32,396 nt of DNA. Source: a virus. Every line of letters begins with the position of its first letter. Position 1 is the stretch's first letter. The notes below the pieces were generated by a model that saw nothing but the letters and a program-made list of their open reading frames with translations, made no database searches and was not told the origin of the DNA. Positions 20,404-32,396 of this stretch are shown here, one piece after another. A program made the position numbers and the translations under genes. The DNA lies in IMG/VR virus record IMGVR_UViG_3300009173_000050, positions 1-32,396 of that record; one strand, 5' to 3'.

Positions 20404-20826
20404 TTACCTATACAAAAAAGTTTCGAATTCTTCCGAAGTCATTTGTCCTAACAGTGTAAAAATAACCTGTATTCTATATCTGTTACGATCTTCTTCTGAT
20501 ATTACTATTATGTCTCTTATAGTAGCACGGGGTTCTAATATTCTTAATGCATCCGCAATTTTTTGTACTACTCGTGTTTCTGTTATCCCGTTCATTGGTT
20601 CAAATAATAAGTCTTGAATACCGGCACCAATTTCGGGATGGCCTAAACGTTCATTTTCCCTTGTTTGAAGAATATTACGCATGGATTGTTTTATAACAGA
20701 GGCATTTCTTGTTTTAACAATATCACCTGTTACCGGATGAACTTTAAAAGAAATATCTACATCAGAATATATTGTTTGTTGCGTATCCGGATCATATTCT
20801 ATTTCAGTGTATGTTGTTTGGGCCAT
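20404..20826 (-). CDS. gp25: baseplate wedge subunit gp25 (gpW/gp25 family)
   Basis: This encodes 140 aa from ATG 20826, against about 132 aa in T4. gp25 is the small lysozyme-like-fold protein that joins the gp6 ring to the hub and starts sheath assembly. The family signature is clear at residues 40-78: RNASVIKQSMRNILQTRENE, then LGHPEIGAGIQDLLFEPM. The start is supported by AAGGAA 7 nt upstream. An exact TATAAATA box ends 20 nt upstream of the ATG, so this gene may head its own late transcript within the operon. gp6 follows after a 3-nt gap. Confidence 0.95.
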   Translation of the reverse strand: MAQTTYTEIEYDPDTQQTIYSDVDISFKVHPVTGDIVKTRNASVIKQSMRNILQTRENERLGHPEIGAGIQDLLFEPMNGITETRVVQKIADALRILEPRATIRDIIVISEEDRNRYRIQVIFTLLGQMTSEEFETFLYR

Positions 20827-30268: not shown

Positions 30269-30853
30269 ATGGCACTAAAAAATTATTCTAAACTACAAGA
30301 TAACGCTATTTCATGGTTGCAGGCGAAATTCGATTTTCTCCGAGACCAACTGATAACCGGCAGATCTCGTATGTCTAAAAACCCATATAAAATTATATCA
30401 GAAGGAACCCGAGAAGACTCAATGCAATTCGGGCATATGTACTTCTTTAATTACGACCCCAAACATAAAACAAAATTAAATTACTATGATAGATTTCCGT
30501 TAGTTATTCCAATAGGATCATGGCAAAAAGGGCTTATAGGAATGAATTTTCATTATCTTCCTCCACAGCTAAGAGAAGCGTTAATGAAAAAATTAATCGG
30601 AAGAATAAATCTTAATGAAGATACTTCTAGAACGTATATAGATATCACTTACAATGATATAAGCCCTTTTGTTAGATATAAAGAAGTCAAACCGACCATA
30701 CATAAATATGATATAGCATATTCATCGGGAACATTTATACATATTGCTGCTGATGAATGGAATACAGCAATTCATTTACCTGTAGAAGATTTTAGAAAAG
30801 CTAGTAAATCTGAAGTTTGGAACGATAGTAGAAAAATTATAAAGGCCATATGA
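30269..30853 (+). CDS. conserved T4-like virion assembly protein, possibly gp2 or gp3
   Basis: This encodes 194 aa from ATG 30269, directly behind gp4. Its TGA overlaps the ATG of the next gene (ATGA). Recognisable blocks are GHMYFFNYDPKHKTKLNYYD, then RFPLVIPI and GMNFHYLPPQLREALMKKL. I recall this pattern in T4-like phages from aquatic hosts but not a secure name. In T4 the order is 3 (tail completion/sheath stabiliser) - 2 (DNA end protector) - 4, so synteny suggests gp2 or gp3, and the length is closer to gp3 (176 aa) than gp2 (274 aa). No catalytic motif is seen. The N-terminus is basic (ITGRSRMSKNPYK). Confidence 0.6.
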   Translation: MALKNYSKLQDNAISWLQAKFDFLRDQLITGRSRMSKNPYKIISEGTREDSMQFGHMYFFNYDPKHKTKLNYYDRFPLVIPIGSWQKGLIGMNFHYLPPQLREALMKKLIGRINLNEDTSRTYIDITYNDISPFVRYKEVKPTIHKYDIAYSSGTFIHIAADEWNTAIHLPVEDFRKASKSEVWNDSRKIIKAI

Positions 30854-31434
30854 ATACAAACGATTTTATTGCTCAGTTAGACACTGCCGGTGGCTTAGCC
30901 CCGATGAACAGATTTATCGCACAGGTCTCTGCACCAACGGTGACCTCAAAACCAGCCGGCCTCGAATTTTTCTGTAATCAAGCTCCTTTGGGATCAAGAA
31001 CAATAGCAACATCTGATTTGAAACATTATGGCCCAGTTCGTAAAATGGCTAGAGAAAATACTTATGCTGAATTTTCATTACAATTTATGATTACTAATGC
31101 ATGGGAGGCAAGAAATTTTTTCATCCGATGGATGGATTTATGTGTTAGTCCTGAGTCTGCTAATATGAAATATTATAATGACTATAAAGGTGATATTAAG
31201 GTATTAGCATTTGATCAAAGTAATGAGTCCATTTCCAATGCAAAAGTCAAGCACGGGACTCATTATATGGATGTATTCCCTACAAATGTTGATCAGATTA
31301 ATCTAGCATGGGACCAACTGAATCAACTCGGGCAATTTAATGTGAATTTTGTTTGTAGAAAATGGCAAAGTTTGGGAGCAGGCGCGAACCGCACCACTGA
31401 AACAGCATTGAGTGAAGATGCAGGATTTCAATAA
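30850..31434 (+). CDS. tail-tube-fold protein, probably tube initiator gp54 (or gp19)
   Basis: This encodes 194 aa from ATG 30850, coupled to the previous gene by an ATGA overlap. Tube-type features include an N-terminal helix then a strand (MNRFIAQVSAP), a central loop region (EFFCNQAPLGSRTIATSD, then HYGPVRKMARENTYAEFSLQ), the helix AWEARNFFIRWMD, and a C-terminal block ending YMDVFPTNVDQINLAWDQLN then FNVNFVCRKW. These parallel T4 gp19, with its ...WPTNVGELQLDWDS... segment, and gp54. Because gp48, the usual partner of gp54, heads the opposite operon and no sheath gene is adjacent, gp54 is my first choice. gp19, the major tube protein, is the alternative. Confidence 0.75.
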   Translation: MNTNDFIAQLDTAGGLAPMNRFIAQVSAPTVTSKPAGLEFFCNQAPLGSRTIATSDLKHYGPVRKMARENTYAEFSLQFMITNAWEARNFFIRWMDLCVSPESANMKYYNDYKGDIKVLAFDQSNESISNAKVKHGTHYMDVFPTNVDQINLAWDQLNQLGQFNVNFVCRKWQSLGAGANRTTETALSEDAGFQ

Positions 31435-31472: not shown

Positions 31473-32189
31473 ATGGCTTTACCAGTAGTAGAAACACCTA
31501 CCTATACAATTAAATTGCATAGTGTAGATAAACCAATAAAATATAGGCCTTTTCTTGTTAAAGAAGAAAAAATCCTATTAACGGCTCTTGAAGGTGGTGA
31601 CACCGCAGATATTGTTTCAGCAACGAAACAAATTATTAAAAACTGTTGCCTTGAAGAAGATCTTGATACATCAGAATTACCATCATTTGATGTTGAAATG
31701 CTCTTTTTAAATCTCAGAGCCCGTTCAGTGGGTGAAGTAATTACAATAGGAATGAGACACCCAGGAGAAGAACCTGATTGTAAAGGTGTCACATCTGTTG
31801 AAATTAATTGTAATGATATAAAATTAGCTGTCAATGAAGATCATAAAGATTTGATTAAACTTAATGATACTGTTTCAGTACAATTAAGATATCCTGATAT
31901 TGACAGAATGACAAGACCGGAAGGTGAATCTCAAATGGATTCTATCTTTCAAATTACTAAGGCTTGCATTGCTGGAATATATGATAAAGATGAATATCAT
32001 GATATAAAAAATAGTACTGAGAAGGAACTAGAAGATTTTATATACAGTTTAGACCAAAAACAGTTTGGTAAAATTGTTGGCTATTTTAATACAATGCCCA
32101 AGCTCCGGCACAAAGTAAAGTTTAATTGTGAACAGTGTGGGAAAAGTGAAAGCGTAGTCCTGGAGGGGCTACAATCTTTTTTCGGTTAG
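31473..32189 (+). CDS. gp26: baseplate hub assembly protein gp26-like, candidate tail assembly chaperone
   Basis: This encodes 238 aa from ATG 31473, with GGAG 5 nt before the start; T4 gp26 is about 208 aa. In T4, gp26 takes part in hub assembly. Family blocks are KPIKYRPFLVKEEKILLTAL (20-39) and FDVEMLFLNLRARSVGEVI (72-90). A C-terminal Cys pair, C219-x2-C222 (FNCEQCGK), precedes LEGLQSFFG. Just before its stop (TAG 32187-32189) the mRNA carries SD-like GGAGGGG, then T TTT TTC. A -1 slip there would append 65 residues of gp51-like sequence and give a 302-aa product. I therefore read the short form as the N-terminal chaperone and the long form as a GT-like fusion; the second part is inference. 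Confidence 0.85.
   Translation: MALPVVETPTYTIKLHSVDKPIKYRPFLVKEEKILLTALEGGDTADIVSATKQIIKNCCLEEDLDTSELPSFDVEMLFLNLRARSVGEVITIGMRHPGEEPDCKGVTSVEINCNDIKLAVNEDHKDLIKLNDTVSVQLRYPDIDRMTRPEGESQMDSIFQITKACIAGIYDKDEYHDIKNSTEKELEDFIYSLDQKQFGKIVGYFNTMPKLRHKVKFNCEQCGKSESVVLEGLQSFFG
32177..32183 (+). promoter_or_regulatory. candidate programmed -1 frameshift site (T TTT TTC)
   Basis: In the gp26 frame the codons are TCT TTT TTC GGT TAG, so the heptamer T TTT TTC has the correct X XXY YYZ phase for tandem -1 slippage. GGAGGGG (32162-32168) lies 8 nt upstream, an arrangement like the SD-stimulated dnaX site of E. coli. Only a small AGCGCT palindrome follows; no strong stem-loop was seen by eye. Slippage enters the gp51-like frame one codon before the gp26 Gly-stop. 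Confidence 0.6.
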
Positions 32190-32380
32190 CGCTCAGTCAC
32201 AATACTTTAAGTAATTATTATAAGACTATTTTTGCTATAATGCAAAATCATAAGTGGAGTTTGACTGAGTTAGAAAACATGATGTGTTACGAAAGAGAAA
32301 TTTATACAGCTTTATTAATAGAACATATAGAAGAAGAAAATCAACGCCTCGACGAGGAAAGAGCAAAACATGGCATCTGA
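32180..32380 (+). CDS. gp51: gp51-like -1 frame extension of gp26
   Basis: The frame is open from 32150 to TGA 32378-32380. Residues from the slip site read RLALSHNTLSNYYKTIFAIM, then QNHKWSLTELENMMCYERE, then a charged helix (EHIEEENQRLDEERAK). I recognise this helical pattern from the small proteins annotated in marine T4-like phages as baseplate hub assembly catalyst gp51. There is no ATG, GTG or TTG before M at 32240, which would cut away the YYKTIFA segment (46 aa left). Expression by -1 frameshifting from gp26 is the best explanation. Initiation at ATC 32174 behind GGAGG is the less likely alternative. The end overlaps the next gene by 11 nt. Confidence 0.65.
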   Translation, partial: FRLALSHNTLSNYYKTIFAIMQNHKWSLTELENMMCYEREIYTALLIEHIEEENQRLDEERAKHGI

Positions 32381-32396
32381 AACTATAACAACAAAA
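32370..32396 (+). CDS. start of next gene, cut by window edge; possibly the tape measure
   Basis: ATG 32370 begins MASETITTK and runs off the window. It is preceded by GAGGAAAG (32354-32361), a plausible ribosome-binding site, and overlaps the gp51-like frame by 11 nt. Nine codons do not allow identification. The gene following tail assembly chaperones is normally the tape measure (gp29 in T4), which is an inference from order alone. Confidence 0.45.

Follow-up and report, generated by a model that had tools for sequence, protein, structure and literature searches.

The window analysed here, a stretch of 32,396 nt that comprises positions 1–32,396 of the IMG/VR virus record IMGVR_UViG_3300009173_000050, from a marine T4-like phage, carries near its end homologues of T4 genes 26 and 51, which most probably (at roughly 0.92) encode a tail assembly chaperone (TAC) pair made by −1 frameshifting at a T TTT TTC slippery heptamer. 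The gp26 homologue, the short, TAC-N-like form of 238 amino acids (aa), is located at 31473–32189 on the plus strand, as are all the other features of this locus, and matches PF12322 (expectation value, E, 6e-61) and phrog_150 (E 2e-65). Its last zero-frame codons read CAA TCT TTT TTC GGT TAG: the heptamer occupies 32177–32183 in phase, and the TAG stop (32187–32189) follows one codon past it. A Shine–Dalgarno (SD)-like GGAGGGG, the proposed 5′ stimulator, lies at 32162–32168, separated from the heptamer by 8 nt. The −1 frame opened at 32183 runs through 65 codons to a TGA at 32378–32380, and this gp51-like extension (TAC-C; 32183–32380) matches phrog_634 (E 5e-25). The predicted fusion product comprises 237 + 65 = 302 aa, and the record ends just past the junction. 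All these elements were found where the first-pass annotation of the sequence had placed them, and its proposal that gp26 and gp51 form one pair joined in the manner of lambda G/GT agrees with the conservation of the heptamer and its phase and with the selection acting on the extension ahead of any start codon.

Conservation of the proposed recoding signals

Eighty related IMG/VR loci were fetched, and removal of sequences of >85% nucleotide identity left 64 non-redundant ones, the window included. All 80 loci, and hence 64/64 of the reduced set, carry an in-phase T TTT TTY where gp26 ends, while in-phase TTTTTTN heptamers number just five among the 10,496 codons of the window; this scarcity, together with the invariance in relatives, indicates that the junction is more than a product of chance. 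The sole other in-phase heptamer near a gene end in the window (TTTTTTG; 20404–20826, minus strand) has no −1 extension behind it. In 59 of the 64 loci a single codon separates the heptamer from the stop codon, and the SD-like element stands at a constant distance upstream, as GGAGGG in 30, GAGGG in 19 and GAAGG in nine of them. The residue ahead of the Phe pair of the heptamer varies (S in 50 loci, D in six, N in six and A in two), and T is invariably the third base of its codon. The alignment of the junction thus gave what the first-pass annotation had anticipated for relatives, namely a conserved heptamer and phase with varying intervening codons.

Third-base conservation beyond the amino acid and codon usage expectation was scored per codon column over 231 columns of gp26. 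The second Phe codon, TTC, ranks first (z 11.3), followed at rank 2 by the Glu codon GAG of the SD-like element (codon 231; z 9.8), at rank 4 by the G preceding it (codon 230; z 7.0), at rank 6 by the T opening the heptamer (z 6.2) and at rank 11 by the TTT codon of the heptamer (z 4.3), z values which are to be taken as ranks and not as exact probabilities, the sequences being related and not independent, a point that tempers the argument. Few synonymous sites of gp26 are as constrained as the bases of the heptamer and of the SD-like element. At the other end of the gene, the third bases of codons 3, 12, 13 and 17 (31479–31523) are also conserved beyond the codon usage expectation, which perhaps reflects structure or regulation at the translation start.

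Downstream of the heptamer, a mild average excess of RNA structure was found across all 64 loci. In one clade of relatives, comprising 16 of the 64 loci (including L020, L022, L060, L070 and L080), an 11-bp stem starts exactly 5 nt past the heptamer. One of its pairs shows compensatory changes, from T-A to A-T or G-C, and a synonymous Ala position tracks the changing residue in the opposite arm. This clade-specific hairpin is a candidate second stimulator. A general 3′ RNA structure shared by the relatives was rejected, the average signal being mild and the stem being confined to a single clade that does not include the window.

The frame change as such could also arise from an error of sequencing or assembly or from the decay of a fused gene, and these would account for nothing more than the frame change itself; its recurrence at the same base, both among isolated phages of several families and across 80 IMG/VR loci, rules out an assembly error and leaves such explanations a negligible probability. 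Transcriptional slippage on the T run, whereby some of the mRNA would gain an extra base that opens the −1 frame, fits the run of at least six Ts found at the junction in all relatives. These runs, however, are mostly of six Ts, which is short for slippage by RNA polymerase, and TTC is used in 51/64 loci against 14 expected from codon usage, although the Arg codon of the −1 frame may also favour C. The fixed SD-like element and the hairpin of the one clade point to ribosomes, and slippage during transcription is considered very improbable.

Probable translation of the −1 frame

Compared with loci L003 and L004, the −1 extension shows a proportion of nonsynonymous differences (pN) of 0.12–0.14 and a proportion of synonymous differences (pS) of 0.61–0.65 when read in the −1 frame, and no comparable excess of silent changes is seen in the other two frames. 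The earliest ATG, GTG or TTG of the extension in the window is an ATG at 32240 (codon 19), located within the conserved segment, in accordance with the earlier statement that the gp51-like frame has no usable start for its conserved N-terminal part. The same pN/pS pattern holds for codons 1–18, which lie ahead of the first start codon in the window; purifying selection acts on the −1 frame even before a start codon has occurred. In L003 and L004 no ATG, GTG or TTG appears until codon 55 of the extension, and 25/64 loci have none within its first ten codons, which favours frameshifting as the source of the residues encoded before the start. These residues could hardly be made in any other way, short of initiation at a rare start codon.

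The alternative is that gp51 is a separate gene, with translation beginning at an internal start or through stop-restart where gp26 terminates, the heptamer being incidental. In databases gp51 is indeed annotated as a separate gene, TAATG or TGATG is found at the gp26 stop in KVP40, P10VF, Vibrio YC and D503, and in 27/64 relatives an ATG precedes the extension or falls among its first ten codons, so that extra initiation is possible there. Nevertheless, no start position is common to all the loci, and the residues that precede codon 19 in the window and codon 55 in L003 and L004 are conserved in spite of the lack of a start before them. A separate gp51 also leaves the synonymous conservation of the heptamer and the SD-like element unexplained, and T4 gp51, described below, is a single fused chain. 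An independent start or stop-restart was therefore rejected for the window, where it is given only a few chances in a hundred, slightly more than slippage by RNA polymerase; it is possible in some lineages.

Other arrangements of the junction were also encountered. Scans with gp26 of KVP40, Dickeya Ds20CZ, T4 and P10VF yielded few further loci. In two loci of Rhizobium phages of the Pootjesviridae (L088 and L094) the heptamer with which gp26 closes is T TTT TTG and not T TTT TTY, and a TGATG overlap is present as well; frameshift and stop-restart could both act there. In loci of the Ackermannviridae and their relatives (L095, L100–L117, L096, L093 and L134) the gp51-like −1 extension is kept without T TTT TTY. 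The junction in these Ackermannviridae-type loci contains T TTC alone, as in ATT TTC ATT TAA; L103, L106, L113 and L117 lack an ATG at this place, and others of the group have TAATG. Single-codon slippage and stop-restart are both candidate mechanisms for these loci.

Correspondence with T4 gp26 and gp51

The gp26 homologue of the window and its extension are related by sequence to the T4 gp26/gp51 family, PF12322, which is matched by both T4 gp26 and T4 gp51. In T4 gp51 the PF12322 match covers residues 1–201 (E 4e-52) and the match to the gp51 family covers residues 147–246. By profile comparison, gp26 of the window aligns with residues 6–202 of T4 gp51 (E 8.6e-15) and the extension with residues 206–246 (E 9.8e-9), the two matches being collinear. 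As gp26 and the extension align on T4 gp51 in order, T4 gp51 is, judging from these alignments, the in-frame version of the frameshift product, i.e., a gp26 paralogue fused to the same extension. T4 thus shares the C-terminal extension with the window but differs in having 26 and 51 as two separate, divergent genes and in the absence of the slippery site.

Cultured phages may serve as natural controls in this respect. T TTT TTY is absent from gp26 of the T4-type phages that have a separate gene 51, namely T4, CC31, VR7, PS2, AM101, 4S, G37-3, phiAS4 and RB43. The ends of T4-type gp26 genes often keep Phe residues without the heptamer (GAG TTC TTT in T4, GAA TTC TTC in CC31), and in most T4-type phages with a separate 51 the frame following gp26 is gp25, with no gp51 tail. 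The heptamer is found together with the −1 extension in KVP40, Cronobacter S13, Aeromonas 65, cyanophages S-SSM7 and P-RSM6, Pelagibacter phage HTVC008M, pf16 and ACP17, and is also carried by the isolates Yut3 and Bakedbeans. The identification of gp26/gp51 as the T4-type tail assembly chaperones, suggested in the first-pass annotation, is strengthened by the chaperone fold considered in the next section, by the collinear in-frame fusion in T4 gp51 and by the lack of the heptamer in T4-types with a separate 51. It may tentatively be suggested, at less than even odds, that the compound recoding signal of T4-like phages (SD-like element, T TTT TTY, near stop and, in one clade, a hairpin) predates the split of 26 and 51 and was lost in the T4 branch when a fused copy arose, in which case the split would be a gene duplication that replaced frameshifting.

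Predicted fold, proposed mechanism and known systems

The AlphaFold2 model of gp26, a confident one (predicted local distance difference test score 90, predicted template modelling score 0.82), resembles the HK97 tail assembly chaperone over residues 1–86. The top four VIA-align matches, 3fgx (Z 8.4), the HK97 chaperone 2ob9 (7.6), YqbN 3klu (7.0) and 5ir0 (4.8), all fall on gp26 residues ~1–96, and the next match scores 3.9. A PDB sequence search with gp26 gave nothing relevant. Upstream of gp26, at 30850–31434, there is a gene for a tail-tube-family protein (phrog_45 tail tube, E 2e-29), which by position and annotation is closest to the gp54 tube initiator; its counterpart in HTVC008M is annotated as a tube initiator. 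The next gene (32370–32396), in the position of the tape measure gene, has only its first nine codons in the window and encodes 762 aa in the near-identical locus L002. No tail family match was obtained for the versions in L002 and L004, and the positional counterpart in HTVC008M matches tape measure profiles (E 8e-12). The evidence on the gene order tube–chaperone–tape measure, proposed in the first-pass annotation, is mixed: a tail-tube-family gene is indeed upstream, though probably one for a gp54-like tube initiator, and a tape measure match comes from HTVC008M but from neither L002 nor L004. In an Acinetobacter phage record, gp26 and gp51 are both named tape measure protein assembly chaperones.

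A mechanism of the G/GT type appears most likely, because of the chaperone fold match, the tail-tube-family gene upstream and the tape measure counterpart of HTVC008M downstream. The gp26 protein would be the chaperone in its short form. Some of the ribosomes that reach T TTT TTC would slip back by one base, with tRNA-Phe in both sites re-pairing from TTT TTC to TTT TTT, a step assisted by the upstream GGAGGGG as it pairs with the anti-SD sequence of 16S rRNA. Having bypassed the TAG one codon on, these ribosomes would extend the chain by 65 residues into a minor 302-aa gp26–gp51 fusion. If lambda gpG/gpGT is a guide, the tape measure protein may be coated by many short forms, and a few long forms may recruit the tail tube subunits. 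The occurrence and rate of slippage, the role of the SD-like element and the binding partners are all inferred. Several points weigh against this mechanism, apart from the early ATGs of some relatives. The window has no clear 3′ RNA structure and lacks the stem of the clade; the fold Z values of 7–8 are middling, and Foldseek of the gp26 model against PDB found nothing at E ≤ 0.001; it placed the HK97 chaperone at E 5.3, a match that stood out only with VIA-align. Given these middling Z values and a Foldseek result that alone is not significant, the support for a tail assembly chaperone fold in the short form is moderate.

The likeness to lambda G/GT consists in a short chaperone and a rare −1 fusion encoded upstream of the tape measure gene. 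The lambda heptamer is G GGA AAG, unlike T TTT TTC of the window, and gp26 has an extra domain past residue 90, the comparison with gpG being one of logic. The predicted fold of gp26 residues 1–88 resembles the HK97 chaperone and YqbN, but the sequence identity to these proteins is 5–6% and gp26 is about twice as long. In E. coli dnaX, −1 shifting is stimulated by an SD-like element that lies ~10 nt ahead of the heptamer; there the heptamer is A AAA AAG and the gene is unrelated.

According to a 2016 review, long-tailed phages widely conserve the G/T frameshift, T4 being the exception (PMC5009743). The first-pass annotation knew of no description of such an arrangement in T4-like phages, a claim that does not hold, as citing papers credit Vladimirov, Gautam and Davidson (2022; Virology 566:9–15) with identifying the tail assembly chaperone genes of T4-like phages. 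The phage Adele paper refers to this work for poly-T frameshift signals already known in the TAC-N genes of T4-like phages (PMC12846349), and PRFect relates on its authority that in some T4-like phages two genes, a short one and a long, fused one, replace frameshifting (PMC10885494). As described in these citing papers, the chaperones of Vladimirov et al. are of the same kind as the pair in the window, with poly-T signals in TAC-N genes. In the Vandenendeviridae, phage Adele included, TAC-N precedes the tape measure gene and has at its end a conserved −1 shift on the poly-T motif GTTTTT (PMC12846349); these are other phage families, and the likeness to the gp26 locus is one of layout.

A frameshifted chaperone pair is thus already published in kind for T4-like phages, and, the general idea being known, the pair described here is less of a surprise; the 3′ hairpin with compensatory changes in one clade is possibly an addition to what is known. 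What is corrected is a common annotation: ‘gp26’ and ‘gp51’ of marine T4-like phages would be the short and the long form of one tail assembly chaperone and not parts of the baseplate hub. A 2010 review called T4 gp51 essential and gave its function as unknown (PMC3004832); the role of this protein now becomes directly testable.
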